A stretch of 64,000 nucleotides of DNA from Nitrosophilus labii. Lineage in GTDB: Bacteria; Campylobacterota; Campylobacteria; Campylobacterales; Nitratiruptoraceae. The stretch lies in NCBI RefSeq assembly GCF_014466985.1, contig NZ_AP022826.1:1798001-1862000 (forward strand). The letters run 5' to 3'. Below are positions 17,441-36,230 of this stretch, piece after piece. The notes beneath the pieces are model-generated. The model ran no database searches and was not told the origin of the DNA. It saw only the letters and a list, made by a program, of their open reading frames with translations. Position numbers and translations under genes: made by a program. Each line of letters starts with the position of its first letter. The first letter of the stretch is position 1.

Positions 17441-18172
17441 TTATTGTACACTCAAATTTTCAAATAGAACTTTCGAGCAACCATCCCCCTGAAGATAAAC
17501 TCCTGCTTTAAAATAGTTCCAATATCCATTCCAATAACTTACATTTTTATCGATTTTTAATTTTTTGTTTAAATAAATTCTCATACGAGAATTTTGCACT
17601 TCAATAGAAACGGTAAAAAAATCTTTTGGTCTTTTCCCAAGGTCTATTTTTTCATATAATTGCTCATTTTTCTCTCCACTTAAACGTATCACTGCCCAAA
17701 GATGGTCTCGTTTACTCTTTTGTTCTTTCCACCATGTAAGTCGCAAAAGAGGTTTATTTATAATTTTACCATTAATTCCTGTTCTATTTGAATTGGCATG
17801 AATTTGCAGGAAAGTAAACTCTTTTTTTTGATCTAAAGGAAAAAGATATAGTTTAGCACGTATAATTTTAGGATATTTTGTTTCCACTCTCCACTCATCT
17901 TTAAATCTCAATTCACTACGATTTTTTTTTCCGCACATAAAAAAGACCATAAACTTTGCATCTTGAAGGTAGAAATATCGATTTGAAAAATATCGAAACT
18001 CTCCATACTTTACACTATATCTAGGATTATAAGGACTTTTAGGAGCTTGTAGTTTAGAGTTATCCAAAACTTGCCTAAATTTTTGTAATGCATAGGGCGC
18101 ATCATGAGCAAAAATAATAGAGCTAAAAAAAATTAAAAATAACAATTTTTTAATAAAATTTAATTTTTGCAT
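17441..18172 (-). CDS. Alginate lyase, polysaccharide lyase family 7
   Basis: Exported enzyme that cleaves alginate by beta-elimination. The 243-residue protein has a signal peptide (about 1-22, ending IIFAHDA). The three conserved PL7 blocks are present: RSELRF near residue 86 (catalytic Arg), LQIHAN near 125 (catalytic Gln and His), and YFKAGVYLQG near 220 (catalytic Tyr), all on the beta-jelly-roll scaffold. It is the last gene of the alginate operon, overlapping the AlgK-like gene by 13 bases. It takes the place of the PL5 lyase AlgL of Pseudomonas, so it probably trims polymer in the periplasm or releases the matrix. Confidence 0.88.
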   Translation of the reverse strand: MQKLNFIKKLLFLIFFSSIIFAHDAPYALQKFRQVLDNSKLQAPKSPYNPRYSVKYGEFRYFSNRYFYLQDAKFMVFFMCGKKNRSELRFKDEWRVETKYPKIIRAKLYLFPLDQKKEFTFLQIHANSNRTGINGKIINKPLLRLTWWKEQKSKRDHLWAVIRLSGEKNEQLYEKIDLGKRPKDFFTVSIEVQNSRMRIYLNKKLKIDKNVSYWNGYWNYFKAGVYLQGDGCSKVLFENLSVQ

Positions 18173-20442: not shown

Positions 20443-22651
20443 TAAAACCATCCTTTTTCGATGCTTCGCTATCAAAAGCCTCTCCTCCTAAAAAGTATCC
20501 CAAAACAAATCTCCAGTATGTATTTTCAATAATATCGTAATGGAGAATAAAATCTATCTCATTACCCAAGCTTTTCTTCTCCCCGTTAGGATTAAAGGTA
20601 TAGAAAGTAGCAAAGTATTGGGAAGAAGAGGGTTTGTCTTGCATAAAATTATGATATGCAATAATGGCTGTTTTATTATCATTTCCCCATAAGTGATGCA
20701 TCAAATACAAAGAGCTTATCCAGATATTTGACAATTCAGGATTGAAAAAAGAGCCGTAATGTCTAAAAGAGATATCTTTGCTAAGATAATTGGTTCGATT
20801 ATTGGTAAAAGATGGCTGTCTATAAAGATTATCTCCTCCGGAACCATAAGCGATTGAGGCTGCAATTGCGCTATCATATCTATAAAAAGTATATTTACCT
20901 CCAATCTCAAATCCAAGCCCTTTAACAGTTCTCTCTTCCTGCATAGGAGCTGGAGTATAGTTTATTGTTTTATATACACCTTCAGCATGTGCTATATCTA
21001 ACCAATACGCTATTTCATCTAAATTTGTTCGTTTTACTTTTCCTTGCATTCTGACGCCAATCCAATCCACATTTTTGAGATTGCCGTCTTCTTGAATATA
21101 AAACCCCTCGATAGTATTATCTTTATAATACTCATAACTTATATGTCCAAACAAAAAATTAGTATTTTTTAGATTAGCTAAAGTCTCATCCTCGCCAGTA
21201 TATAATACAATACTATCGGTTAAACGGGTCCCTACATAAAACTCATAAAGCAAAAGATCATGTTTGTTGAAAAATCCTACAGTATCTAAATATGTTTTAA
21301 AATACCAACTACGATCGTCTTTAAGATATTTTCTACCTATTAAAAAGTTAGATTGATTATCAAATAGCCCGTCACTGCTTATAAACAGTTCCTTGACATC
21401 TAATTTTGTTTCTTTTCTATCTTTGGAAATATATAATAAACCTCTATCATCAGTAAAAAAGTACCACTTAGGAAAAAAATAGTATTTGTATTTTAAACCA
21501 GTAGTAATCGTAAATGATTGATTGTCTCTTTTGTTTCCGTTTATATCAATTTGTCCCTCATTAATATTTAGTGTTGCGGTGGAATAAAACAGTAGTTTTT
21601 CTTTGGATTTAAACAGCATCTTATTTTGTTCAGTTTGTAAAAATAGTCTTTGGGGAGATTTTGGAACCTCGATGTTTGGAACTGTTTTCTGTAATGAAGT
21701 ATCCACAAAATTCTCTACAGCTTCAAGATCTATATCTTCCCACGGAAAGCTTTTTTTGTCATCCATACACTTGTCCCTACAAGCAACAAGATTCTCCTCT
21801 ATATCAGTTGAACACCTACTCTCTATATCTTCACTAACAGATACTTTTTTGTAAAAAGATGGTTTTAGCACACTTTTTTTGTTTTTTTGCTGATGGGATA
21901 TAGTTAAGTTTTGATCTATTTTTTTTTCTGTTTTTTTAAGAATAGGCCCCAACTCCTCTTCTTCAACAACTTCTTGTTTTATAGGGATAATTATCGCCGT
22001 TGGAAAATCTTTTTTAAATCTTAACCACTCAGATTTTGCTTTGGTAGCTGACTCAAAACATCCATATCTAGCTATATAGAACCCATTTTCCTTAACAACT
22101 TTTACTCCTAAAGGAAGTTTGGTTTTTTTTATAGGTTTTTTACTCTCAAAAAGTTCAATAGTAAAACATGAATTTGTTTTGCTGTAGCTTGTTTGAGCGA
22201 TTTTTTTTGAAGTAGTAATTGTTTTTAATTTATCTTTAGCAACAATGGTTTTAAAAGGTATACTAGGTTCAACCTCTTCAACAGCTTCAAACTCTTTTAA
22301 ATGTCTCTTTTTTTTATCAGATTGCAAATATAAATTTTTTTTGAATTTTTTAAGAGAGGTACCATTACCTTTAACACTATCTTGAAATCTAAATCTATAT
22401 GTAGAAACGATATAGGCTTGAGGAAATTTCTGTTTTAAGCGTTTAAGAGCCGGCTTAGCCTCCTTAACTCTTTCAAAACATCCGTAACGTAAAGTATATA
22501 TTCCATTTATATGCATAACTTTCGCTTCTTTAGGAAAGGAGCTTTGATATGCAATAGGTTTTACGCTACTTAGAAGCTGAACAGAATAACAAGTATCTTT
22601 ACTATAAAGAAGTGTTACAAAAAATAGAGAAAAAAAGATTTTATTTCTCAT
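20411..22651 (-). CDS. AlgE-like alginate export porin with two SPOR-like modules
   Basis: Probable outer-membrane beta-barrel that lets alginate out of the cell. The 746 residues comprise a signal peptide (about 1-17), a first SPOR-like module (about 21-83, with C21 and C58), a second (about 162-224, with C162 and C198), a Cys/acidic linker (C280, C291, C295), and a barrel from about 350. The barrel ends in an aromatic residue (FKYLW), typical for BAM insertion, and contains GNEIDFILHYDI and WRFVLGYFLGGEAF, which resemble the closing strands of alginate-export barrels. Pseudomonas AlgE (about 490 residues) has no such N-terminal extension. It lies between algG and algK as in known alginate operons. 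Confidence 0.8.
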   Translation of the reverse strand: MRNKIFFSLFFVTLLYSKDTCYSVQLLSSVKPIAYQSSFPKEAKVMHINGIYTLRYGCFERVKEAKPALKRLKQKFPQAYIVSTYRFRFQDSVKGNGTSLKKFKKNLYLQSDKKKRHLKEFEAVEEVEPSIPFKTIVAKDKLKTITTSKKIAQTSYSKTNSCFTIELFESKKPIKKTKLPLGVKVVKENGFYIARYGCFESATKAKSEWLRFKKDFPTAIIIPIKQEVVEEEELGPILKKTEKKIDQNLTISHQQKNKKSVLKPSFYKKVSVSEDIESRCSTDIEENLVACRDKCMDDKKSFPWEDIDLEAVENFVDTSLQKTVPNIEVPKSPQRLFLQTEQNKMLFKSKEKLLFYSTATLNINEGQIDINGNKRDNQSFTITTGLKYKYYFFPKWYFFTDDRGLLYISKDRKETKLDVKELFISSDGLFDNQSNFLIGRKYLKDDRSWYFKTYLDTVGFFNKHDLLLYEFYVGTRLTDSIVLYTGEDETLANLKNTNFLFGHISYEYYKDNTIEGFYIQEDGNLKNVDWIGVRMQGKVKRTNLDEIAYWLDIAHAEGVYKTINYTPAPMQEERTVKGLGFEIGGKYTFYRYDSAIAASIAYGSGGDNLYRQPSFTNNRTNYLSKDISFRHYGSFFNPELSNIWISSLYLMHHLWGNDNKTAIIAYHNFMQDKPSSSQYFATFYTFNPNGEKKSLGNEIDFILHYDIIENTYWRFVLGYFLGGEAFDSEASKKDGFNAQIYFKYLW

Positions 22652-25292
22652 AATCGTGCCCTAATAAAAGATTTTTGACTACTGTTTCATACGAAATCTT
22701 TCTAAAACGATAGCGGTTGATATCCTCAAGATATTTTTTGATTTCAGGTTCAACCTGTTTTAAAATATCTTTTTTCTTCATGCGTATAAAAGATAATCCT
22801 TGCTGACGTGCTCTTTGCTGATTTTTGAGATAGTCTTTACAAAGCTTATATTTTCTTGCAAGTTTATAGACTCTGCTATAATATCTGTTAAAGCCTGCTT
22901 TTATTGCATTTACCTCTTTGATATGTTTTTTGAAGTAGATTTTAACAGGAGTTGTAAATATGGTATATTGTTTGCTGATACTCTTACAATAATCTAAAAA
23001 TGTTGATGCCTTAGCCATTTTGAACTTATACTGAAAAACTTTCCAAGCGGCTAAAACTTTTCTTTTTTTATAAAGACTATTTTTACAAACTGAGCAGTGT
23101 TCATACTTTTTCTGATCAAAAAGTTGACCTTTTTGCATTCGAGCTTTTGCTAATAAAAAAGCCTCTTCAATCAGATAAACTCCATTTGGAATAAAAAATC
23201 GAAGATACTCTAATCTATGAAAATCCAAAACATTGTCACTTAAAATCGCATCTTCTATAATATAACTTATCCCTTCAATAATTTTCTCTCTATCATCAAA
23301 CCCTTTCTTGCGACTCTCCGTTAGATAGTAAAATCCCAAAAAGGTTAAGGCACCTTTTGAGAAAATTGAACTGGCTCTAAGAAGTTCATATTCGGTTAAC
23401 TCTTTAGATTCCCGATTTATATAAAGACCTGCTAGATGCGTGCCAAAATAGTCATTAGGAGCATTTGCTATATCTTTATATATCTTTTTAGCAACTTTAT
23501 AGGCGTATGGATTTAACTCTAAAAGATCGCTACTGCGCGCATGAAATGGAAACCCTAACCCATAAAGAGTAAAAGAGCCTCGATTTTGAATAATCCGATC
23601 ATAAAAAAAGTTAAGATCACCTCCTATCCCAAAATAGTTTGGGATTTTATTTTTATATATCTTAACAGCCGCTCCATTTTTGATCATTATGTTTGTATTG
23701 TAATTGGATTCGATAATATTATTTGAAATAACAGCAGATGATGCTTTAAAGTAGGGATCTCGACGCATATCTCTTCCGGGAATATCATCGATATTTTTCT
23801 CTATTATCTCTATACCGTTTTTTCCGTTGTAGCGAATAGAGTTGTTGCGAATGCTTACTCTTAAGGAATTTCTTACCATTACTCCGTTGATATTGTTACC
23901 AACAACTGTATTGTTAGCTATCAAAATATTTTTGCTCTCTTGGGAAGATATACCCATAAATCCATTAGCTACGGTTAGATTATTGTAAATGATATTATTA
24001 TTTGATAATCTATCCACCATCAACCCATTTGAGCGGTTATTTAACGCAATGTTATCCACCATATATGAGTACTCGACTCCTCTTGAAACTATAAAACCAT
24101 GCGCCACTTCGGAATTCATTGCTATATTCTTAGCTATAACCAAATTTATGGAGTAATCATGGGGATCAAAATTGTATATTTGATTATTGTATGTAAAATT
24201 ACCTAAATAGACCGCATCTTTCGCTCCGTTTGTATAAAAACCCATAGTTGAATTAAGAATATCATTTCCAATATAAGCCCCCGTAGGTGCATTCATGTGG
24301 CTTAAAAAGTAATACATAGCCTGAGAATATGGAATGAAGTCATTTTTTTTGGGAGAAAGCAAACCTATCCCGAAAGTAGCAGATGTACTGTGAAAACCTA
24401 GTCCATCGAAAATATTATTGACAAAGTAGCTTTTTGAGCCAGAAAGACCTAAAAAGTATGGTCTAGGTTTCTCATAGTTGATATAGAGAATCTTCTCTTT
24501 TGGTATATTTTCTCTTGGACAATAGCGATCTCTTTTTGTATCCCAAGTTACAAATCTACTGTTGGCAAGATAAAGCTCTCCATAATAAACTATAAAAATA
24601 GGATTAGGTAAAGTTTGCAATCTAACCGTTTTGTTTTTGATAACTAGTTTCGCCGTAGATGATACAAAAATAGAGATATTAATCTCGTATGTTTTATTAT
24701 CTATTTTTTTTATCAAATTTGGATTATTGAGTCTTTTATAGATGTACTCCAAGCTGTAAACACCATCGTAAAGAACCAAAATTTTTCGATTTTTATGGTT
24801 ATTAAACATATAAAAAGAGTAAAGATTGATAGAAGGGATAAAGTTGGCTTTATCAAGATCATATAGTTCAATACCTTCTCCATAAAGGTGTTGGGGGAAC
24901 TGTCGTAAAACATTATGTGGAGTATATTTTCTATAGATTTTTTGAAGATACTTTTTCGCTCTTGTTAAAGAGAGAAAAGAGTTTTGGGGAAATATAACAT
25001 AAGGAATCCCATCATTAACTTTATGATAAACAATCTTTGGATCTTTAAAATTAAAATTTAGTGTCTCTAAAACCTTTTTCGCATCCTTCTCTTTTTTGTA
25101 ACATCCCACGTATGCGAGATTTGCTTTACGAAAAAGAGGAGGTTTTATAAAAAGATTGCAACGCTCCTTGGAATATGGGTTATAAAAATAGTTTTCACTT
25201 ACTGGAGTAGAGCTATCGACTTTGGTCAAAATTGAGTAGCAATACCCCGCAAAAAGTTTTATAGATATTACAAGCAACACAAAAGCTTTCAT
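22641..25292 (-). CDS. AlgG-like mannuronan C5-epimerase
   Basis: Periplasmic enzyme that converts mannuronate to guluronate within the polymer and helps guide it to the porin. The 883-residue protein has a signal peptide (MKAFVLLVISIKLFAGY). An N-terminal Cys-containing SPOR-like segment (about 18-100) is followed by a right-handed beta-helix of NNxI-type rungs (about 270-560). The AlgG catalytic motif DPHD lies at residues 376-379 with HGFIVSRG shortly after. A C-terminal helical domain of about 280 residues (600-883) has no counterpart in Pseudomonas AlgG (about 540 residues). It starts 9 bases after alg44 and overlaps the porin gene by 11 bases. Confidence 0.85.
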   Translation of the reverse strand: MKAFVLLVISIKLFAGYCYSILTKVDSSTPVSENYFYNPYSKERCNLFIKPPLFRKANLAYVGCYKKEKDAKKVLETLNFNFKDPKIVYHKVNDGIPYVIFPQNSFLSLTRAKKYLQKIYRKYTPHNVLRQFPQHLYGEGIELYDLDKANFIPSINLYSFYMFNNHKNRKILVLYDGVYSLEYIYKRLNNPNLIKKIDNKTYEINISIFVSSTAKLVIKNKTVRLQTLPNPIFIVYYGELYLANSRFVTWDTKRDRYCPRENIPKEKILYINYEKPRPYFLGLSGSKSYFVNNIFDGLGFHSTSATFGIGLLSPKKNDFIPYSQAMYYFLSHMNAPTGAYIGNDILNSTMGFYTNGAKDAVYLGNFTYNNQIYNFDPHDYSINLVIAKNIAMNSEVAHGFIVSRGVEYSYMVDNIALNNRSNGLMVDRLSNNNIIYNNLTVANGFMGISSQESKNILIANNTVVGNNINGVMVRNSLRVSIRNNSIRYNGKNGIEIIEKNIDDIPGRDMRRDPYFKASSAVISNNIIESNYNTNIMIKNGAAVKIYKNKIPNYFGIGGDLNFFYDRIIQNRGSFTLYGLGFPFHARSSDLLELNPYAYKVAKKIYKDIANAPNDYFGTHLAGLYINRESKELTEYELLRASSIFSKGALTFLGFYYLTESRKKGFDDREKIIEGISYIIEDAILSDNVLDFHRLEYLRFFIPNGVYLIEEAFLLAKARMQKGQLFDQKKYEHCSVCKNSLYKKRKVLAAWKVFQYKFKMAKASTFLDYCKSISKQYTIFTTPVKIYFKKHIKEVNAIKAGFNRYYSRVYKLARKYKLCKDYLKNQQRARQQGLSFIRMKKKDILKQVEPEIKKYLEDINRYRFRKISYETVVKNLLLGHDYEK

Positions 25293-25301
25293 TGCTTTAT
25301 C

Positions 25302-26396
25302 CTATTGCCAAAAGGTATCTATTGTTACAAATACCGTCGTATTAATCAATGAAATATCTAAAGGTTTTAGTGGCTCCAAATAGAGCGTATCGTAATCTCT
25401 AGGACGATTATAGATATTTGCCAATATTTTCGCTTTTTCTAGATCAACTGGCTGCGCTGGCTCTATTTTAATGATCCTTGCCTGAAAAACTTGTTCATCT
25501 TGTGTGCGTACATCTGCTATATAGCCAACTTTAACTTTTTTAAAAAACTTATGTTCCATTTTTGCTACAATATATGGAAGTGTATCTTTGTGTAAAACCG
25601 TAATAATGGGTTCTGCAGTATTTCGAAACTCATTTTCCAAAACATTGACTTTTAAAACTGTCCCACTTAAAGGAGAAACTATCGGTTGCATCTCTCCGTC
25701 AATAAACCTAGCTATAGCAATAGTTTCGTTTATATCTATATTGTCTCCTTTTTGCAAATCCCTCGTAAAATGGATATAGGAAAGAAAAGGAGCACGTATA
25801 ACGGTAATGTTCCCATCTACAAAAGCATTAGTAGTTTGCACGACAAAAGTGCGGTTGTATGCTATATAGCCCAAAAAAGAGAGTAAAATAAAGATAACTG
25901 TATAAATCAAAATCAGTATTTTATCTGCTCTTTTTCTGTTAAGTTTCTTCTCCTCCTTTTTAGGATATGTTATCTGTCTTGTAACCGCATAAAGAATATC
26001 CTCTTTAGTAATAATATCACCGTTAATATATGCTGTGATAATTTGATTTAAAATTGAGATTTGATAATCCTCTAGATTATGAAATTTTGCTCCTAATAAA
26101 GGATAGTGTTCTCCCACAGGCTTTTTACCTGTACAGATAAAATCTAAATTGAGATTGTCTATAACAGTTTCAAAGGTGTCGTACTTAAAAATCATTTTTC
26201 CTTTGCGAGACGGCTTTTGACAAAACTCCTTTGGAGCATTTTTTATGGCAAGTCCACCTAACGACCAGTTGTCAACTATATAGATTTTTCCGTCTATTTC
26301 AACTTTTGCCGGAATTCTATAACGAGCAAACTGCCTTGTCACCTCAGCCTCGTGCATAATCTGTTTTGCCAATTTCTCTTTTTTTTCGGTGTTCAT
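25302..26396 (-). CDS. alg44: Alg44-like PilZ-domain membrane protein
   Basis: Co-polymerase of alginate synthesis and receptor for c-di-GMP. The N-terminal PilZ domain has the RxxxR motif (R21-QFA-R25) and the (D/N)xSxxG motif (NWSLGG at 43-48) needed to bind c-di-GMP. A single membrane helix follows at about 166-188, then a periplasmic HlyD/membrane-fusion-like beta domain (PLSGTVLKVNVLENE). The 364-residue length is close to Pseudomonas Alg44 (389). It overlaps alg8 by 4 bases (ATGA), matching the invariant alg8-alg44 order. It implies that alginate production responds to c-di-GMP. Confidence 0.93.
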   Translation of the reverse strand: MNTEKKEKLAKQIMHEAEVTRQFARYRIPAKVEIDGKIYIVDNWSLGGLAIKNAPKEFCQKPSRKGKMIFKYDTFETVIDNLNLDFICTGKKPVGEHYPLLGAKFHNLEDYQISILNQIITAYINGDIITKEDILYAVTRQITYPKKEEKKLNRKRADKILILIYTVIFILLSFLGYIAYNRTFVVQTTNAFVDGNITVIRAPFLSYIHFTRDLQKGDNIDINETIAIARFIDGEMQPIVSPLSGTVLKVNVLENEFRNTAEPIITVLHKDTLPYIVAKMEHKFFKKVKVGYIADVRTQDEQVFQARIIKIEPAQPVDLEKAKILANIYNRPRDYDTLYLEPLKPLDISLINTTVFVTIDTFWQ

Positions 26397-27958
26397 GTCA
26401 ACACATCCTTTATGAAGTGAAGATATAGCCAGATATCGTCAAAACTAAGTATCTGAACTAAAAAAGCTATAGTGATCAAGAATAACAGCATTTTGATAAC
26501 AAGAGTTCCGTTTGAACTCACTCGATAATACCACTCTATATAAGCCTCTTTACTTTTTAGTTTTGTTTTTTGTCTCGTCCAAGACTGTTTATATAGATGC
26601 TCCCATATATAGATCTTCGTTAGCGAACCTATAAGCTGATGATAATAAAGCAAAAGCGGCCACATTGGATGTATGTCTCTTCTTGTTATTCTATAAACAA
26701 AAATCATAATCAAACGAGAAAAGAGTATCCACCATATATAGGCAAAAAGTATATATATTCCCCAATGAACTGCTCCTATAAGTGCAAGAAAAAAGCCATA
26801 AGGTGTCATCCATTTGGTAATCCTTTGATCAACAATAGCATACCATGGAAAATTTCCGATACGTTCTCTTATATTCTTGATTTTTAACTGCTTGAGATTT
26901 GTTCTATATTGATTTCCAAACCAACGTACCATTAATTGCAATGAACCTATAAAAAAATTTTTATGTACTAATTCATCGATTGTATGTACCATAACATCAG
27001 GTACATATGTAAGATGCCAACCATCTTTCATAACATAGTATAGACTCGATTTATCGTCGCCGGTTAAAAACTCAAAAGTTCCCAACCGCCAATGATGCAC
27101 ATAGTCAAGTTGTACTGTTTTAACAAAAGCAGCCTTTGCTACGATATTTGCCCTAATCATAGACATACGTCCAGTCAAAGTCAAGATCCTATCCGCTAGC
27201 GCAACAGAGCACATAGAGATATTGCGTTGTGCCATCCTAAGTCGATACCAGTTAAGATAAAGATATTCCGACACTGTTTTTGGGGGAGTAAGAAGTATAG
27301 AGTCTTCATCTGTAGTAAGTCCCCCCAGATTTGGCTCTAATCCAAATAGTCTAGCACATTTGCGAAAAGTCCCTGGAGTAACAATAGAATCGCCATCTAT
27401 TACAGCTACAACACTTCTATTTAAATTTACTTGGGGCGTATTAGCGACAACTCTGTATCCGGCAGCCAAAGCATCTCTTTTCCCTGTCCCTTTAATCCGT
27501 ACAATAACAAGCTTTATCCTCTCTGGAGGTTCAAGTTCTAAAAAAATCCTTCTTACAAGACGCTCTTCCGAAATCTCCACAAGGGAAGCTATAATAGTAG
27601 TATTATATCCAGAAGCAATTGCGTCTTTAATAGCTTCACGATAAACTTTTACGGTTATGCTAGTTGCAATTTTGTATGTGGTAATAAGAACAAAAAGATG
27701 ATCTGGATCGATCTCCTCTCCAGCCTCCTCCTCTTTTTTTCTCATTTTTCTAAACTTTGATGTTATATATCGATATGCTCGAATATTATTTAAAAAAAAC
27801 CAGCTATAGCGATATGCACCAACTACTCCCAATATAAAAATAAGCTGCTTTTGATAAGGATCAAAAAGTTCGCCTGGTAAAGCAAGAGCATAAAGAACAA
27901 CTACTATGATATAAAAAAGAAAAAAGATAAAGTTGTTGTTGACGCTCTCTTGATACAT
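26393..27958 (-). CDS. alg8: Alginate polymerase Alg8 (family 2 glycosyltransferase)
   Basis: Inner-membrane processive glycosyltransferase that joins mannuronate from GDP-mannuronate. The protein has about 521 residues. Two N-terminal membrane segments (from about residue 12) precede the GT2 catalytic domain with VAVIDGDSIVTPG (the DxD-type site) and FLTGDDKSS, and several C-terminal membrane segments follow. ATG 27958 is chosen over the longer frame from 27973, because AAGGGTGAG precedes it and it starts 8 bases after the algD stop. Cellulose and hyaluronan synthases are related, but the adjacency to algD and alg44 settles the identity. Confidence 0.92.
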   Translation of the reverse strand: MYQESVNNNFIFFLFYIIVVVLYALALPGELFDPYQKQLIFILGVVGAYRYSWFFLNNIRAYRYITSKFRKMRKKEEEAGEEIDPDHLFVLITTYKIATSITVKVYREAIKDAIASGYNTTIIASLVEISEERLVRRIFLELEPPERIKLVIVRIKGTGKRDALAAGYRVVANTPQVNLNRSVVAVIDGDSIVTPGTFRKCARLFGLEPNLGGLTTDEDSILLTPPKTVSEYLYLNWYRLRMAQRNISMCSVALADRILTLTGRMSMIRANIVAKAAFVKTVQLDYVHHWRLGTFEFLTGDDKSSLYYVMKDGWHLTYVPDVMVHTIDELVHKNFFIGSLQLMVRWFGNQYRTNLKQLKIKNIRERIGNFPWYAIVDQRITKWMTPYGFFLALIGAVHWGIYILFAYIWWILFSRLIMIFVYRITRRDIHPMWPLLLYYHQLIGSLTKIYIWEHLYKQSWTRQKTKLKSKEAYIEWYYRVSSNGTLVIKMLLFLITIAFLVQILSFDDIWLYLHFIKDVLT

Positions 27959-27966
27959 ACTCACCC

Positions 27967-29277
27967 TTACCAACAGATTCCTTGATAGTTTTCTTTACTT
28001 TTTTTATCAACAATTCTCATAAGATCAACAATATATTTGTGAAAATATCTATTGGGTATATCTCGAAACTCCTTAGAGTTATTACCTAAAATTATTATAT
28101 CAGCTTTTTCTATTGTTTCTTCTAAATTTTCATTAAGTCTTATATTGATATGTTGCAAATCACTCTCCAAAACCGTTTTCAATGCTCCCTCTTTTTTTGC
28201 TAGTAAAACGTTTTTATCATAAATGCTCAATTCATACCCTTTTCCTATCAACATCTCAGCAAGCGCTAATTGCGGAGATTCGCGCAAATCATCTGTGTCA
28301 GCTTTAAAGCTTATTCCCAAAAATGCGACTTTTTTGGAGGGCAAAGGTTGAATAAAATCGAGATAAACTCTTTTTATCTGCCACTCATTACTTGGCATAA
28401 TATGTTCCATCATCGGGATAGTTATATCTAACTCCTTGGCTTTATATGTGATCGCTCTTAAGTCTTTCGGTAAACATGAGCCTCCAAAAGCAAATCCGGG
28501 TTTGAGATAATATGAAGAGATATTTAGTTTTCTGTCTTCACAAAAAATTCGCATAACTTCATGGGAATCGATTTCTAATTCTTTGCAAATCATCCCTATT
28601 TCATTGGCAAATGTTATTTTAGCCGCGTGCCAACTATTGGAAGCATATTTGATCATCTCAGCCACTTCTATTTGGGTTTCAAATAAAGGAGCGTCTAAAA
28701 AAGAGTAAAGTTGTTTGAAGATTTCAAAAACTTTTAAGTCTTCTGCACCGACAACGGTAAATGGAGGGTGATAAAAATCCTCTATTGCCGAACTTTCACG
28801 TAAAAATTCAGGATTAGAAGCATATCCAAAATCTACGCCATGTTTTTTTCCAGAAATCTTTTCAATTAAAGAGATAACTACATCTTTGCCGGTTTTTGGC
28901 AAGACAGTACTACGCATAGTGACAACATGATAACTATTTTTGCTTTGTAGCTCTTTTCCTATAGCTACGGCGGTATCTTGAATATAGCGTAAATCCAAAG
29001 AGCCATTTTTTTGACTCGGTGTTCCTACGGCAATTATCGTAAGATCACTATTGGCGATAGCATAATGTAAATCGGTAGTAGCTTTTAGTCTGTTTGCCTC
29101 TACGCCCTCTTTTATAAGCTCTCCCAACCCTTTTTCTACAATAGGAGATTTTCCTTTGTTGATAAGTTCTACCTTTACGCTATCTACATCAACTCCAATA
29201 ACAGTATGTCCCTCTTTGGCAAACGCAGCTGAACAGACACTGCCTACATATCCCAAACCGATCACACTTATTCGCAT
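27967..29277 (-). CDS. algD: GDP-mannose 6-dehydrogenase AlgD
   Basis: NAD-dependent four-electron oxidation of GDP-mannose to GDP-mannuronate, the committed step of alginate synthesis. At 436 residues it has the length of Pseudomonas AlgD. It has the dinucleotide-binding start ISVIGLGYVGSVCSAAF, GKSPIVEKGLGELI, the catalytic cysteine in FAFGGSCLPKDLRAITY, and FKADTDDLRESPQLALAEML. These blocks match AlgD better than UDP-glucose dehydrogenases. It overlaps the phosphatase gene upstream by 10 bases. Confidence 0.95.
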   Translation of the reverse strand: MRISVIGLGYVGSVCSAAFAKEGHTVIGVDVDSVKVELINKGKSPIVEKGLGELIKEGVEANRLKATTDLHYAIANSDLTIIAVGTPSQKNGSLDLRYIQDTAVAIGKELQSKNSYHVVTMRSTVLPKTGKDVVISLIEKISGKKHGVDFGYASNPEFLRESSAIEDFYHPPFTVVGAEDLKVFEIFKQLYSFLDAPLFETQIEVAEMIKYASNSWHAAKITFANEIGMICKELEIDSHEVMRIFCEDRKLNISSYYLKPGFAFGGSCLPKDLRAITYKAKELDITIPMMEHIMPSNEWQIKRVYLDFIQPLPSKKVAFLGISFKADTDDLRESPQLALAEMLIGKGYELSIYDKNVLLAKKEGALKTVLESDLQHINIRLNENLEETIEKADIIILGNNSKEFRDIPNRYFHKYIVDLMRIVDKKSKENYQGICW

Positions 29278-30029
29278 CTATTTTTCCCCTTTTTTAAAAA
29301 ATCTAAAACTCTTTTAACAAAAGATAACTTCTGTTCAACAACAATAAAACTAACATTGTCAGAGAGTTTTTTTCTTTTTTTGATTCTTTCAAATATTTTT
29401 AAAATATTTGAGCTCATAACTATCTCTTGAATTTCGTTTTCAAATTCTCTCCAAAATCCATCGGAACAAATCAGCAATTTCTCACCTTTTTCTATAGCTG
29501 TTGACGAAAAAAAAATTTCAAACTCCTCTATACCAATACCTCCCGATATTGACGAAGTAAGAATATTGCTATTTTGATGTTTTAATCCTATCGACTGTAG
29601 TTCATTGACTAATGTATGATCTTTTGTCAATACTTCTATATTTTGTGGAGAAACTTTATACACTCGACAATCTCCTACATTAAATATCAAAGCTTCATTT
29701 TTTTTCCAAACAATACCTGCTAAAGCTGTTGCTAGAGAAATAATCTCTTTGGCAGCTATCTCCTCTAGTTCTCTCTTTGCCTCTATCAATGTTGCAACAA
29801 TCATTTGCCTATTACTAGGCTTTTTTTGTTTTAAACATTCTAACACTGTTCGCGCTGCTTTCATTCCAGCTTTATGTCCTCCTAATCCATCTGCTACTAC
29901 AGTCAAGAAGTGATCATTTTTTATCTCTTTTTGTGAACATTTTTGGACAATCTCATCATCGATTAAAAGCAAATCTTCGTTTTTTCTACGAACACTTCCT
30001 AATTCACAGCAGTAAGAAACATATAACAC
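29268..30029 (-). CDS. PP2C-family protein serine/threonine phosphatase
   Basis: Metal-dependent phosphatase expected to reverse the action of the neighbouring kinase. The 253-residue protein has the canonical motifs: RRKNEDLLLID near residue 15, VVADGLGGHKAG near 47, NVGDCRVY near 116, LLICSDGFWRE near 187 and LSDNVSFIVV near 224. All metal-binding Asp residues are present. It resembles the Stp1/PppA group encoded beside Hanks-type kinases. It lies 9 bases after the kinase gene and overlaps algD by 10 bases, so it is locked into the alginate operon. Confidence 0.92.
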   Translation of the reverse strand: MLYVSYCCELGSVRRKNEDLLLIDDEIVQKCSQKEIKNDHFLTVVADGLGGHKAGMKAARTVLECLKQKKPSNRQMIVATLIEAKRELEEIAAKEIISLATALAGIVWKKNEALIFNVGDCRVYKVSPQNIEVLTKDHTLVNELQSIGLKHQNSNILTSSISGGIGIEEFEIFFSSTAIEKGEKLLICSDGFWREFENEIQEIVMSSNILKIFERIKKRKKLSDNVSFIVVEQKLSFVKRVLDFLKKGKNRCE

Positions 30030-30038
30030 TTTCTATCC

Positions 30039-33000
30039 TTAAAAGAGTTTTGCCAAAATTTTACCAACAATAAAGCCAAATTTACGATAACGTTTAGCTT
30101 TAGAAACAGAAATATCTGCAGCTTTCCACTCTTTAGCCTCTTCAATATCAAAACCGGCCTTCTTCCACTCTCTAGCCTCTTCCAAACTAAATCCTTGGTC
30201 TATCCAAGCTAAAAGTTCATCAATACTAAAACCATCATCCACTAAGTTTTTGGCAACATTTGGCAAGAACCCTATATTTTTCCACTCCAAAACTGATCTA
30301 ACATCAAACCCGTACTCAATCCACTTTTTTGCTTCATTGGGCAAAAAACCCTCTTTTTTCCACCTAATAGCTTTTTGCGATTCAAAACCTAACTCATGCC
30401 ACCTTTTTGCTTCTTGCAACGAAAAACCTTTTGTAAACCAACTTAAAAACTCTTTAACCCTAAAACCCTCCTCTTTTATTTTTTGAATTACATCAAAAAG
30501 ATTAGATGACCAAACCTGTAATTTGCCATTAAGTCCTCCGGCAACAAGAAGGTCTCCTTTTGGATTATAAGCTAACGACAACATAGCGTCTCTATTCAAA
30601 GTAATAGAGCTGATCTTTTTTTGCTCATAAAGATTCCAAAGCTCAATAGTTTTGCCTTGTTGAATAGCCAAAACACCATCTTGCATCGGAACAGTTTTCA
30701 TAAACTCTGTATAATCAAAATTATCGGAAAGTTCAGTAACTTTAGACCTATTTTCTATATCCCAAATGGTTATATCTCCCTCTTCACCAGCAACAGCAAC
30801 AACCGTACCGCTTGGATTAAAAGCAACAGATTTGATACTTGTATTATGCTGAAAAAGAGTAATTTTCTCTTTACTTTGATAATCCCACAATATAACACTC
30901 CCATCTTCAGAACCACTAGCCAAAATGTTTTTTAATGGATGAAAAGTGACCATCCGTACACTAGCCTTATGTTCATCAAAAAAAGCTTTTGCCTCTTTTG
31001 TACGAAGCTCCCAAACTATAACATTACCACCCTCTGTTCCACAGGCAAGCAAAGTACCGTTGTGATTAAAATCAATACTATTAATATAGCTTTTGCTATC
31101 TTTTAAGACGTAAAATGTCTGTTTTGTTTCTATGTTCCATAGGCGTATCTGCATGTCCCAACTACCGCTAGCGAGTATATTTTCAACTGGACTAAAAGCT
31201 ACGCACGTTACATAACTTTGATGTCCTTCCAATCTTGCAAGATGCTTTTTTGACGACACATCCCAAAGAGATACTGTTTTATCCTTGCTTGCACTTGCTA
31301 AGATCTCACCATCTTTGCTAAATGCAACAGATTGAACACAATCTGTATGCAATTCCAAAATAGCAAACTCTTGATCAGCTTTCTCGCTTAATAATCTAAT
31401 CGTATAGTCATTGCCGCCGCAAGCAAGCATATCCCCTTGAGGACTGTATCTTATACTTTTAATGGCTCCATTTAGAACTTTTTTATTCTCTAAAAGAGTA
31501 TAAAAACCTCTCTTTAACTGCTTAATTTCATCAAAAACCAAACCCTCTTTTTGTGCGATTTTAGCTTCTTCAGGTTTTACATTTATCTCTTTTTTAAATA
31601 AAAGAGCTTCATGCAACCGAAAACCGGCATCTCTCCACTCTTTTGCTTCTTCTAGATCAAACCCTGCTTCTTGCCAGTTTCTAGCGCTTGTCTCATCGAA
31701 ATTCTCCAAACCTATTTGCTTACTATTTTGTACCTGGTAATTTTCTCTTTTATTTAAAAATCGATCTATCTCTTCTGCACCCCAACGCTTAGAGCTATCT
31801 TTTTGGAGAAGTCCTTCAAGAACCTCTTTAATATCTTGTTCGCTTGTTTCGATAGGTATGGGCTCATGTCCAGCTATCTTAGATAGCAAGCTATTAAATT
31901 CAACTCCTTCAAAAGGTTCTTTGCCAAAATATAACAGATATAAGATCATTCCAAGTGACCAGTAATCACTCTTTTTGTTATATTCGTTTGAGAAAGTTTC
32001 TGGAGCAGAGTATTTATATGTACCTTTAAAATTTTTAGTAAAAACAGTTGACTCCTCAATACTTTTAGCAATACCAAAATCGCAAAGTACTACTTCAAAC
32101 CAATCTCTAAGAAGAATATTGGATGGTTTCAGATCTCGGTGATAAATATTGTGACTGTGCAAAACTTTTAAAGCTTCGTTTACCTGTTTTAGAAAATCAT
32201 AGAAGATCTCTTTTGAAGCAAAACGATCTTTATACTCTTTATTGTGTAAAAGTTCTGAAATACTACCTAGTTTACAATATTCATATATTTCAAAAAAACT
32301 TCCTTGCGTCTCTCCAAAATCTATAAGTCTAACCAGATGCTGAGGATGCTCTACGGTAAGTTGTTTGATATTTTTTACTAAATCAAGATCTGGAAAGATA
32401 TCTTTGCGATATATTTTAAGCACATACTGGGTATCATCTTTTTGTACCAAATATGTATCAGACTCTCCCCCTAAAAAAAGATGTTTTATGATCTCATACC
32501 CCTCTATTTGCCGGGGAGTATGTACTAGAGACTCAGCTCTTGCCATAACTATCGTCTTATTAACAGTTTGCCCATCTATAGATGGCTCTTTTTCTGTTTT
32601 ATCGCAAATATAATTTTCTTTGATCGTTTTATCACTCTCTAAACCATACTGCACCGTCAAAAAGATTTTCTGCGATAAGGAAATAACGTCATTATGTTTT
32701 AAAAGAAAATGTTTGTTGGGAGATAGCTTTTGAGCGTTTAGATAAGTCCCGTTAGTACTTCCTAGATCTTGAATGTACCATTGATCATTTTTTTTAAAAA
32801 TCTTTGCATGTCTTCTTGAGATAGCTTTATCCACAAAGTAAGATTTCGCGATCCCTTCTCTTCCTAAAATAGTAGGTTTAATTATTGTAATAGTAAATCC
32901 GTCTCCAAACAATACCAAAGGGATCTCAACTAATTCATCTTCAGTTAAAGAGACGGAAGAGATGTCGGTTGAACAATTTTTACACAAAAGAGAATTTGGC

Positions 33001-33041
33001 TCATTTTTTGTTTTACAAACAGGACAGATTTTATACGCCAT
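30039..33041 (-). CDS. Zinc ribbon-FHA-Ser/Thr kinase-WD40 protein
   Basis: A 1000-residue cytoplasmic regulatory kinase. In order: zinc ribbon (CPVC and CKNC, residues 6-23); FHA domain (about 50-130, GREG, SRRHAK, DLGSTNGTYLN); Hanks-type kinase (about 180-440) with VLKIYRKD lysine, HRDLKPSN, CDFGIAKS and APETF, all catalytic residues kept though the glycine loop is poor; short EAxxW-type helical repeats; about seven WD40 repeats (about 545-820, LASGSWDMQIRLW and similar); and a C-terminal array of about eight repeats of type EAxxWxxxGF. ATG 33041 is chosen over the frame from 33077 because GGAAGG precedes it and it then starts just after the upstream gene. Its substrate is not known; alginate export proteins are candidates. 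Confidence 0.88.
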   Translation of the reverse strand: MAYKICPVCKTKNEPNSLLCKNCSTDISSVSLTEDELVEIPLVLFGDGFTITIIKPTILGREGIAKSYFVDKAISRRHAKIFKKNDQWYIQDLGSTNGTYLNAQKLSPNKHFLLKHNDVISLSQKIFLTVQYGLESDKTIKENYICDKTEKEPSIDGQTVNKTIVMARAESLVHTPRQIEGYEIIKHLFLGGESDTYLVQKDDTQYVLKIYRKDIFPDLDLVKNIKQLTVEHPQHLVRLIDFGETQGSFFEIYEYCKLGSISELLHNKEYKDRFASKEIFYDFLKQVNEALKVLHSHNIYHRDLKPSNILLRDWFEVVLCDFGIAKSIEESTVFTKNFKGTYKYSAPETFSNEYNKKSDYWSLGMILYLLYFGKEPFEGVEFNSLLSKIAGHEPIPIETSEQDIKEVLEGLLQKDSSKRWGAEEIDRFLNKRENYQVQNSKQIGLENFDETSARNWQEAGFDLEEAKEWRDAGFRLHEALLFKKEINVKPEEAKIAQKEGLVFDEIKQLKRGFYTLLENKKVLNGAIKSIRYSPQGDMLACGGNDYTIRLLSEKADQEFAILELHTDCVQSVAFSKDGEILASASKDKTVSLWDVSSKKHLARLEGHQSYVTCVAFSPVENILASGSWDMQIRLWNIETKQTFYVLKDSKSYINSIDFNHNGTLLACGTEGGNVIVWELRTKEAKAFFDEHKASVRMVTFHPLKNILASGSEDGSVILWDYQSKEKITLFQHNTSIKSVAFNPSGTVVAVAGEEGDITIWDIENRSKVTELSDNFDYTEFMKTVPMQDGVLAIQQGKTIELWNLYEQKKISSITLNRDAMLSLAYNPKGDLLVAGGLNGKLQVWSSNLFDVIQKIKEEGFRVKEFLSWFTKGFSLQEAKRWHELGFESQKAIRWKKEGFLPNEAKKWIEYGFDVRSVLEWKNIGFLPNVAKNLVDDGFSIDELLAWIDQGFSLEEAREWKKAGFDIEEAKEWKAADISVSKAKRYRKFGFIVGKILAKLF

Positions 33042-33049
33042 ACCCTTCC

Positions 33050-34804
33050 TTACGTCATATAACCGCTTAATCGCCATCGGCTATCTTGTAATTCTATCTT
33101 TTCTATTAATATAGTTTGACCACCTTTTATATCCAATCGCAAGAATAGATCTGATAAAGGATTAATAAAGATATTTTGCAAACATTTTTCGATCTTTATC
33201 ATATCTAAAGAGTTGCAATGTTTAATACACTCCTCTTCAATTCTCTTTCTAGATATATCATTCATCATTATCGTAATTTTTTGGAAACTTTTTATATTCT
33301 CTATAGTTTTATCGATCATTTTTTGGATCCACCATTTTATATCCTCTTCCTTAAGCAAATCAAATATTATTAATTGAAGATTGTCAAGAAGAGATTTTTG
33401 GAATTTTTGCTCTAAAATTCGAAATACTTCATTATGATAGTCTTTTTTGTTATCATTAGAAAATGATTCATCATCGAACAATAAAGATGTATTTGTCGTT
33501 AATATAATAACCGCTTCGCCAAAATAGAGTATCTCTTGCTCATCGATATTCACTTTTCCTTTTGTAACAATTTGATTAATAAAGTCAAGTATATCAGAAG
33601 GAGCAGCATCGAAATTTTCAAACATCACAATACTGTTGGGATTTTCTTGAATAATTCTTATAAGCTTTGATTCTGTTAGCAGTAATCTATCAAGAGCCTT
33701 ATCTTTGTTTATATACTCTAAAAGATCAAAATGAAAAAAGAGAGATTCTGTTTGAAAAAGATTTTTTGCCAAACTTTGTCCTAGTTTTTTGTGTATCTGT
33801 TCATATGGTCCTGCAAACAAAAGTGTAAGACGAGGTCTGTCTATGTTTTCTGGATTTTCTAATCGATTGAGATTGAAATAAGCACTTTGAATGGCCTTAA
33901 CTATCTTTTCTATTGCTTTTTCTTGACCAAAAATCTCTTTGTTCAATTTTTCTTGCAATTTCATCAGTTGTTTTTTTCCTATTTTACTCCATAAAATTTC
34001 TGAAGAGCCAATCTTATATTCTTGAATTGCTTCAAAAATCTTATTTATTTTAGAACGTTTTTGTTTTGCAAGAATAAAGCTATGCAAAATATCTTTACCA
34101 TAAAAAGAGTTTGTATAAAGAGATAAAAGTTCTAAAAGCTCATTTTGTCTCTCTGGCAATAATGTCTTATACTCTTCAAAAGTAACTATAATCGACTGGA
34201 TAATCTTTTTTCTAGTTTCGATATCGGGCTTTGGGATAGAAATGGTTCTGATTTTGCTATTGTTGTAGTATAAAGGAAAATCTTTACTTTTGTCTAAAAT
34301 ATAAATTAAAAGATTAAATCTTGATATGTCTCCAACTTTAATCGGATAAGCGTTAAGAGAGTATCGAAAAAAGGTATATAAAAACTTATCTATCTCTTCT
34401 TGTGGATATAGTTCTTTAATTCGAGAGCAATGGTTAACTATAAGAGCGCTATTTGTATCGTTTGCTTGCAGAAGATTTTCGACTTTCCAGATAGCCTCGG
34501 CTAAAGAGTTAGTTTGTATCATATCTTTATTGTCAAAATCTATACCTAAGACTTGTAACTGTTCTTTATCACCGCTTAAAAGTGAAAAACCAAATAAAGG
34601 CTCAAACATAACAATATTCTCATACCCTTCTTGACTTAAAATAGTAGCCAGATAGTTTGGTAAAGACAGGGTAGTATAACCGTATTTTTCATCATAATAG
34701 GGATAAAAATCATATATATTTCCATCAATCAAAAATTGTTGGTGAACTGAAGTAAAAGCAAGAAGTTCTTTTGCCCAATTTGGAAGATTTTCTTTTTTAA
34801 CCAT
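33050..34804 (-). CDS. ClpB/ClpA-like AAA protein with degenerate ATP site
   Basis: A 584-residue cytoplasmic protein. The second half (about 285-560) follows the ClpB second-ATPase layout: IFGQEKAIEKIVKAIQSAYF, then a position equivalent to Walker A reading LLFAGPYEQIHKKLG, then a Walker B position reading IVMFENFDAA, and a sensor-like VIILTTNT. The GKT/GKS of Walker A is absent and the Walker B acids are altered, so ATP hydrolysis is doubtful. The first half is an unrecognised AAA-like domain. ATG 34804 (AAAGGTGG upstream) is preferred over the longer frame; it overlaps algA by 8 bases. It may be a scaffold or pseudo-ATPase partner of the kinase. Confidence 0.7.
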   Translation of the reverse strand: MVKKENLPNWAKELLAFTSVHQQFLIDGNIYDFYPYYDEKYGYTTLSLPNYLATILSQEGYENIVMFEPLFGFSLLSGDKEQLQVLGIDFDNKDMIQTNSLAEAIWKVENLLQANDTNSALIVNHCSRIKELYPQEEIDKFLYTFFRYSLNAYPIKVGDISRFNLLIYILDKSKDFPLYYNNSKIRTISIPKPDIETRKKIIQSIIVTFEEYKTLLPERQNELLELLSLYTNSFYGKDILHSFILAKQKRSKINKIFEAIQEYKIGSSEILWSKIGKKQLMKLQEKLNKEIFGQEKAIEKIVKAIQSAYFNLNRLENPENIDRPRLTLLFAGPYEQIHKKLGQSLAKNLFQTESLFFHFDLLEYINKDKALDRLLLTESKLIRIIQENPNSIVMFENFDAAPSDILDFINQIVTKGKVNIDEQEILYFGEAVIILTTNTSLLFDDESFSNDNKKDYHNEVFRILEQKFQKSLLDNLQLIIFDLLKEEDIKWWIQKMIDKTIENIKSFQKITIMMNDISRKRIEEECIKHCNSLDMIKIEKCLQNIFINPLSDLFLRLDIKGGQTILIEKIELQDSRWRLSGYMT

Positions 34805-36230
34805 TATCCACCTTTGATTTTTCGATCCTGCCGTAATCATCGGCATATCGAATGATATCATCTTCATCCAAATACTCTCCTACCTGAACTTCAACAATTT
34901 CAAGCGCTACTTTCCCAGGATTAGAGAGTCTATGTTTTGCTCCTATAGGAATATATATTGATTCATTGCTTCTAAGCAAAAATTCCTTATCGTCAATTTG
35001 TACCAAAGCTGTCCCTTTAACTACAATCCAGTGTTCGCTCCTGTGAAGATGTTTTTGTAAAGAGAGGCGCTTACCTGGTCTAACCACCAACGTTTTTACT
35101 TTAAATCGTTTATCTTCGTGAAGATTGGTAAATTTTCCCCAAGGCTTGTAAACTGTCCTTCCGTAACGAACTAACTCTGGATTTTTTTCTTTTAATTTTT
35201 TTACAATTTCACGAACCTTTTGAGAAGAACCCTTTTTCCCTATCAAAAGAGCAGAAGGAGTATCTACTATTATCAAATCGTTTACCTCGTTTAAAGCTAT
35301 AGTTTTGTAACGCCCAAATATAAAGTTATTATGAGAGTTATAAGAGATAAGATTTTTTTGTTTAGTATTTTGATCTTCATCCTTCTCAAAAACTTCGTCT
35401 AAACTATCGAAACTACCAATATCGTTCCATTCGATAACACTTTTTACTACTTTGATATTTGAGCTTTTTTCCATAACCGCATAATCTACACTAATATCTG
35501 GTATATCAATCATATTGTCACTTTTCAATCTAATAAAATCATCTTTTTGAACATTTTCAAAAGCCGCTTTCGACTTTTCATAAATTTCAGGAGCATGTCG
35601 TTGTAACTCTTCTAAATAAAGAGAGGCTTTAAACATAAACATACCAGAGTTCCATAAAAACATCGATGTACTTTTTGGATCGCTATTGGCTTGTAGATAA
35701 TTTTTTGCGGTTTGCAAATCAGGTTTTTCTTTAAAACTTTTAACGTCTAAAACAGTAGCCTCATCTTTGCTTACTTGTATGTATCCATATCCGGTCTCAG
35801 GCTTAATAGGTATTATGCCAAAGGTAACCAAAGAGCCTTTTTTTGCTGCTTCAAGACCATATTTAATCATCTTTGCATAATTATGATCGGCTTTTATTAA
35901 ATGATCGCTTGGAGTAACAAATAAAATATCTTCTTCTGCTAAAAATGCACCAAAAGCGATAGCAGCCGCAGTGTTACGTCCAATAGCTTCCACTACAAAA
36001 TACGGATGACATCTATTTAGATGTAACTCTTGTGTTTGATCTTGAGCAAGAAAATATTGAGCCGCATTAGAAACCACAATCGTCTTATCGCTAAAGGGTC
36101 TATTACGTAAAAGGGTTAATTGATAAAGCGATCTGTTTTCAAACATTTTTAAAAACTGTTTAGGCATATTTTCTCTACTAATTGGCCAAAGTCTTGTTCC
36201 ACTACCTCCACATAAGATAATATTCGTCAT
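34797..36230 (-). CDS. algA: Mannose-1-phosphate guanylyltransferase / mannose-6-phosphate isomerase AlgA
   Basis: Bifunctional enzyme: isomerises fructose-6-phosphate to mannose-6-phosphate and forms GDP-mannose from mannose-1-phosphate. The 477-residue protein has the nucleotidyltransferase signature GGSGTRLWPISRENMPKQF at 8-26 and FVTPSDHLI. The C-terminal cupin isomerase domain contains PGKRLSLQKHLHRSEHW and YIPIGAKHRL. Length and layout match AlgA/ManC. The phosphomannomutase needed between its two reactions (AlgC) is not in the window. It is the first gene of the operon; upstream lies an AT-rich region with a direct repeat. Confidence 0.95.
   Translation of the reverse strand: MTNIILCGGSGTRLWPISRENMPKQFLKMFENRSLYQLTLLRNRPFSDKTIVVSNAAQYFLAQDQTQELHLNRCHPYFVVEAIGRNTAAAIAFGAFLAEEDILFVTPSDHLIKADHNYAKMIKYGLEAAKKGSLVTFGIIPIKPETGYGYIQVSKDEATVLDVKSFKEKPDLQTAKNYLQANSDPKSTSMFLWNSGMFMFKASLYLEELQRHAPEIYEKSKAAFENVQKDDFIRLKSDNMIDIPDISVDYAVMEKSSNIKVVKSVIEWNDIGSFDSLDEVFEKDEDQNTKQKNLISYNSHNNFIFGRYKTIALNEVNDLIIVDTPSALLIGKKGSSQKVREIVKKLKEKNPELVRYGRTVYKPWGKFTNLHEDKRFKVKTLVVRPGKRLSLQKHLHRSEHWIVVKGTALVQIDDKEFLLRSNESIYIPIGAKHRLSNPGKVALEIVEVQVGEYLDEDDIIRYADDYGRIEKSKVDNG

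Follow-up and report, generated by a model that had tools for sequence, protein, structure and literature searches.

A kinase, a phosphatase, and an Hsp100-like gene inside an alginate operon

The 64,000-nt stretch of the Nitrosophilus labii HRV44 genome analyzed here (contig NZ_AP022826.1, positions 1,798,001 to 1,862,000; the window, in whose coordinates features are given) contains a predicted alginate operon into which three genes of a signaling type are built. On the minus strand, positions 36230 to 17441 form a single tight gene run in the order algA, Hsp100-like, FHA/kinase/WD40, PP2C, algD, alg8, alg44, algG-like, algE-like, algK-like, and PL7 lyase. The trio between algA and algD encodes a tandem-AAA protein of 584 amino acids resembling Hsp100/Clp (33050 to 34804), a cytosolic Ser/Thr kinase of 1,000 amino acids that carries an FHA domain (30039 to 33041), and a PP2C Ser/Thr phosphatase (29268 to 30029). 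An initial annotation of this DNA had placed a kinase with an FHA domain, a PP2C phosphatase, and a ClpB-like gene between algA and algD with an outer boundary at 34804; three minus-strand open reading frames (ORFs) with that boundary are indeed present.

The three genes are closely packed. The Hsp100-like gene starts with ATGGTTAAA at 34804, and its first 8 nt are shared with the end of algA; the kinase gene starts at 33041, 8 nt past the Hsp100-like stop, with a AAGGAAGGG ribosome-binding site, and its MAYKICP start is common to N. labii and Nitratiruptor sp. SB155-2, both of them Campylobacterota from deep-sea hydrothermal vents. The phosphatase gene uses a GTG start 9 nt past the kinase stop, and its last 10 nt are shared with the start of algD. 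Longer ORF starts at 34867 for the Hsp100-like gene, which is not needed, and at 33077 for the kinase gene were rejected. Promoter-like sites within the operon were fewer than in shuffled sequences. Pfam assigned Pkinase to the kinase (3e-41), PP2C_2 to the phosphatase (2e-11), and AAA_2 to the Hsp100-like protein (7e-11), and the FHA domain was detected with NCBIfam FHA models (5e-13). No membrane span was found in any of the three proteins, the kinase having no 19-residue window above 1.6, whereas Alg8 and Alg44 do have membrane spans.

Catalytic motifs of the kinase and the phosphatase

The kinase begins with a zinc ribbon (CPVC..CKNC), followed by the FHA domain, a Thr-rich linker, an RD-type Hanks domain, short helical repeats, a WD40 propeller, and further helical repeats; the zinc ribbon, the propeller, and the helical-repeat tail, like the loss of ATPase motifs described below, had not been part of the initial annotation. 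The Hanks domain retains the VLK lysine, HRDLKPSN (HRDxxxxN), DFG, and APE, and catalytic residues 299 to 390 are identical between the Nitrosophilus and Nitratiruptor copies. In the phosphatase, the metal-binding motifs NED, DGxGG, GDCR, CSDG, and DN are all kept. The structure model of the kinase was confident only for the WD40 propeller and the 13-residue helical repeats and not for the kinase/FHA part. These repeats, tandem GFxxxEAxxW units (GF..(E)EA..W) modeled as short helix-turn elements, flank the propeller on both sides (window positions 30039 to 30500 and 31470 to 31700, or about residues 860 to 1012 and 460 to 525 of the longer kinase ORF); Pfam did not recognize them, and among the loci fetched they are present in these two kinases only.

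An Hsp100 fold without its motor

The structural model of the Hsp100-like protein is a tandem-AAA Clp/Hsp100 fold across the whole length (Z about 26 over 478 to 506 residues), and the best NCBIfam match is ClpB, at a score far under that family's cut-off. In the first ring, a P-loop is found in no relative aligned, a GN(I/V)xD-type motif (GNIYD in N. labii) standing in its place. In the second ring, the Walker A motif GPTGVGKT has become GPYEQIHK in N. labii and SSCKEIPK in SB155-2; both species have also lost the pore loop PGYVGY and the Arg-finger stretch by deletion, carry EN in place of the Walker B DE, and lack the sensor 2 GGR. Of the 13 other aligned relatives, 12 have an intact second ring, and the remaining one (locus L026) deviates solely at the Walker A lysine, which is Asn. 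The protein thus shares with ClpB and ClpC the tandem AAA fold over about 500 residues but lacks an N domain, has a P-loop in neither ring, and retains none of the Walker A and B motifs, pore loop, or Arg finger of a ClpB/Hsp100 disaggregase. The proposed ClpB-like identity stands for the fold, while no ATPase motif is intact.

The occurrence of the same deletions in both species indicates that the motor was lost before they split. On the tree, N. labii and SB155-2 pair together at the end of a long stem (2.65 changes per site), nested in a clade of seven (support 97/99). Within the dead ATPase half, nonsynonymous divergence (pN) is 0.33 and synonymous divergence (pS) is 0.70, with synonymous sites near saturation; pN well below pS in this half fits a retained pseudo-enzyme and not a decaying gene. 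As judged from its motifs, the Hsp100-like protein is a conserved pseudo-ATPase that has kept its fold and lost every ATPase motif.

Distribution of the trio and selection on its genes

The initial annotation had proposed looking for the same trio beside alg8-alg44 in other genomes, and it was found again in SB155-2 (genome G036 of our set, N. labii being G000), identical in composition, position, and order, within an operon that sits elsewhere in that genome. Matches to alg8 occur in 7 of 397 Campylobacterota genomes, one of which (G369) was excluded, as its Alg8 match has the look of a cellulose-type synthase (28%, 893 amino acids, no alg neighbors). The full kinase was found in 2 of the 397 genomes, N. 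labii and SB155-2, both alg8 bearing. Within the family, 22 genomes were covered, and alg8 is present only in the two trio carriers; the trio is not present in family genomes that lack alginate genes. An Hsp100-like form close to that of N. labii was found, among 298 genomes, in N. labii and SB155-2 only. A PP2C-kinase fusion of about 540 residues, distinct from the trio, is found in most other members of the family, and N. labii itself has as its other Ser/Thr kinase/phosphatase a fusion of about 560 amino acids (G000:C1:526144-527553).

For all three trio genes, pN between N. labii and SB155-2 is far below pS, indicative of purifying selection, and synonymous sites are saturated, so the divergence is old. 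The gene overlaps on both flanks of the trio are maintained in both genera, and the G+C content of the operon matches that of each host (32.7% and 38.4%). Four further Campylobacterota alginate operons (G004, G040, G393, and G343) are without the trio, which therefore lies outside the core alginate machine; the notion that it belongs to the core alginate gene set was rejected on the same ground. Present in two carriers and absent from four other operons, the trio was added in one lineage, and its place in the alginate operon is a lineage-specific recruitment.

A widespread parent module

Relatives of the Hsp100-like protein, gathered by a profile search of 84,980 genomes and by a plasmid search, belong to a recurrent five-part set composed of a kinase, a Zn-ribbon-FHA protein, a radical-SAM/4Fe-4S protein, an active Hsp100-like AAA protein with the GN(I/V)xD first ring, and a PP2C. 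The module occurs in Bacillota, Nitrospirota, Muiribacteriota, and other Campylobacterota, and partly in Alphaproteobacteria. It is complete on an Aristaeella lactis plasmid (L086, 7639 to 14667), and kinase, AAA, radical-SAM, and Zn-ribbon-FHA genes occur together at two Nitrospirota loci (L036, 1560 to 6993, and L082, 9052 to 14494) and a Muiribacteriota locus (L039, 9986 to 16086). The draft genome of Sulfurovum FS08-3 has the module spread over three contigs, the radical-SAM, Zn-ribbon-FHA, and PP2C genes being grouped, and Rhizobium plasmids carry the AAA and radical-SAM genes plus a Zn-ribbon/kinase/helicase fusion. Further module loci are L080, L081, and L023. Polysaccharide genes were found in no module locus read, and a literature search found no description of either the trio or the five-part module. 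A sister pair of AAA and radical-SAM genes (L024 to L030 and L087) looks like a separate conflict-type system; in other Campylobacterota and on a Polaromonas plasmid it is accompanied by a large SF1 helicase or by different large proteins, with a PIN-domain protein alongside on the plasmid.

Each part of the trio can be traced to this module. The Hsp100-like protein aligns over its full length, GN(I/V)xD motif included, with the module proteins of L023, L035, L036, and L039 (26 to 30%); kinase residues 1 to 136 match the free Zn-ribbon-FHA protein (41%, Sulfurovum copy), and the next 290 residues, N-tail and domain, match the module kinase (31% for L039; module range, 31 to 34%); the phosphatase matches the Sulfurovum module copy at 33%. 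The homology of the FHA, kinase, and PP2C parts to module copies identifies the trio as a fused and reduced form of the module. The two have in common the AAA homology, the Zn-ribbon-FHA unit, a kinase with a Thr-rich tail, and the PP2C, but the trio differs in having no radical-SAM gene, an FHA-kinase fusion, added WD40 and helical repeats, a pseudo-ATPase, and a site in an alginate operon. The adjacent radical-SAM protein of the module has no counterpart in SB155-2, and one weak match (25%) lies elsewhere in the N. labii genome.

This ancestry bears on the likeness to the phosphorylation switch of type VI secretion that had been suggested for the locus, according to which a threonine-phosphorylation pathway (PpkA, PppA, and Fha/TagH) would have been relocated to alginate export. 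The likeness holds as a theme, given that a kinase, a PP2C, and an FHA domain lie near an export machine together with an Hsp100-like protein. However, the membrane-spanning PpkA, the separate Fha/TagH scaffold, and the type VI core genes have no equivalents here: the FHA domain is fused to a cytosolic kinase without a membrane span and is nearer to the module Zn-ribbon-FHA protein (41%) than to TagH (E value of 2.5e-06), the sheath protein VipB (VipB/TssC) was not found in either genome while the Escherichia coli control was positive, and the AAA protein is not ClpV, being closer to ClpB and without ATPase motifs. A type VI origin of the trio was rejected on the fused FHA domain, the missing membrane anchor, and the absence of VipB, and relocation of such a pathway is a reading to which we attach hardly any likelihood.

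The contexts of the module raise another explanation, in which the trio would be what is left of a mobile defense or conflict-type system, kept for its old role or slowly decaying. Plasmid and helicase contexts suggest, but no more, a defense or stress role for the parent module: its relatives lie on plasmids, by large DUF4011 or AAA_11/AAA_12 helicases, a PIN-domain protein, and transposases. Neither the radical-SAM partner nor a working ATPase motor is left in the trio, and its kinase resembles defense-list kinases (mad6 and PD-T4-6), as any Hanks kinase does; these PADLOC matches, like those of the AAA protein, reflect generic family similarity. A remnant is hard to reconcile, however, with purifying selection on all three genes across saturated synonymous divergence, with intact kinase and phosphatase motifs and an identical catalytic lobe, with losses that are shared and old instead of scattered, and with a site at which no helicase or effector gene is left. 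We regard this explanation as improbable.

The surrounding alginate genes

The remaining genes, all on the minus strand, make up a synthase-dependent alginate operon with Alg8, Alg44 with its PilZ domain, AlgG, AlgK, an export porin, and AlgA/AlgD, the identity of the polymer being predicted from the genes alone. The first gene, algA (GDP-mannose pyrophosphorylase/phosphomannose isomerase; 34797 to 36230), is about 80% identical to that of SB155-2 and lies next to PL7 or algD in other Campylobacterota too. Downstream of the trio come algD (GDP-mannose 6-dehydrogenase; 27967 to 29277), alg8 (membrane glycosyltransferase, the alginate polymerase; 26393 to 27973), and alg44 (25302 to 26396), whose product has a PilZ domain, a transmembrane segment, and an HlyD-like periplasmic part. 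The Alg44 PilZ domain scores below the Pfam cut-off, with its motifs present: RxxxR (RQFAR) and (D/N)xSxxG (NWSLGG), read from the sequence, are both retained, so the input of cyclic di-GMP (c-di-GMP) is still present, as the initial annotation had supposed.

The algG-like gene (22641 to 25292) encodes a beta-helix mannuronan C5-epimerase of 883 amino acids that has additional N- and C-terminal parts, the latter conserved across every Campylobacterota alginate operon read. The algE-like outer-membrane export protein (20411 to 22651), with an N-terminal SPOR domain, is assigned as the porin by its position and by homology among the Campylobacterota operons; an algK-like Sel1/TPR lipoprotein (18160 to 20475) and the PL7 alginate lyase (17441 to 18172) complete the run. 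The PL7 gene is the last one in the trio carriers, lies between algA and algD in G004 and G040, and directly precedes algD in G393 and G343. A Mutator-family transposase gene (16028 to 17194) lies just past the operon end. The operon shares AlgA, AlgD, Alg8, Alg44 (PilZ), AlgG, AlgK, and an AlgE-like protein with those of Pseudomonas and Azotobacter but differs in the trio inside it, in PL7 replacing AlgL (PL5), in the SPOR domain of the AlgE-like protein, and in the absence of AlgX, AlgI, AlgJ, and AlgF.

A possible phosphorylation gate on alginate synthesis

Alginate synthesis serves as a model of how c-di-GMP controls biofilm polymers, and to our knowledge no Ser/Thr kinase is known inside such an alginate operon, nor did we find one in the literature searched. 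Our best reading, with a probability of about 0.5, is that the trio is a reduced and repurposed copy of the module that would exert phosphorylation control over alginate synthesis; the evidence for this control is position, co-occurrence, and selection. An ancestor of N. labii and SB155-2, or a donor from which both operons came, would have placed a module copy between algA and algD; the Zn-ribbon-FHA protein would have been fused to the kinase, with gain of the WD40 propeller and helical repeats, while the radical-SAM protein was dropped and the Hsp100 motor was lost with its fold kept. A signal would be sensed via the WD40/helical part of the cytosolic kinase, which would phosphorylate partner proteins and its own Thr-rich linker ahead of the kinase domain, and the FHA domain would dock onto those phosphothreonines. 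The position of its gene suggests that the dead Hsp100-like protein may serve as a scaffold or switched partner, coupling to the cytosolic face of the Alg8/Alg44 synthase, with PP2C resetting the switch. The outcome would be a posttranslational gate on alginate synthesis, added to the action of c-di-GMP on the Alg44 PilZ domain. Plausible candidates for the autophosphorylation sites are TxxE/D motifs: six kinases, taken from three phyla, have 15 of them ahead of the kinase domain versus 5.5 expected from shuffles, an excess that was spotted first and tested afterward on six related tails.

Several observations weigh against this gate. The linker of N. labii alone is not significant for TxxE/D (2 versus 1.0; P = 0.27), and the phosphorylation target in the operon is a predicted one. 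The trio comes from two genomes only, which may represent one event; the four alginate operons without it are presumably functional; and the module relatives are without any polysaccharide link. The last two points also favor what we consider the main rival, that the trio works as a cytosolic Ser/Thr signaling unit of a general kind (stress, temperature, or energy), co-expressed at the biofilm switch and with its targets elsewhere; kinase targets are often pleiotropic (PMC4601284). Such a unit would sit poorly with the absence of the trio from family genomes without alginate, even though most of them retain another PP2C-kinase fusion, and with the gene overlaps kept on both sides in both genera, and we judge it somewhat unlikely.

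For the new control of alginate export proposed in the initial annotation, the anatomy therefore speaks in favor (a position that both genera conserve, retained catalytic motifs, purifying selection, and absence from family genomes that have no alginate genes), while control of the output remains a prediction from sequence. A trio mostly distant from polysaccharide genes had been named there as counterevidence; its relatives do lie mostly away from such genes, but the exact derived form turned up in alginate operons only. A loose precedent for phosphorylation control of a polymer may be PssZ, a Ser/Thr phosphatase encoded in the exopolysaccharide (EPS) region of Rhizobium leguminosarum, the mutation of which abolishes EPS (PMC6213207); the polymer and machinery differ from those considered here, and no linked FHA-kinase or pseudo-Hsp100 is described there.

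What is new at this locus is the conserved death of an Hsp100 motor, together with a widespread parent module that is apparently undescribed. A more specific proposal, which is speculative and unlikely as it stands, is that a pseudo-Hsp100 scaffold under phosphothreonine control, a dead two-ring chaperone from a mobile signaling module, would act from the cytosol, without dependence on c-di-GMP, to gate a synthase-dependent polysaccharide machine. If the trio does act on Alg8/Alg44, it would provide a second, phosphorylation-based gate on the polymer and would show how an Hsp100 chaperone can become a pseudo-enzyme scaffold.

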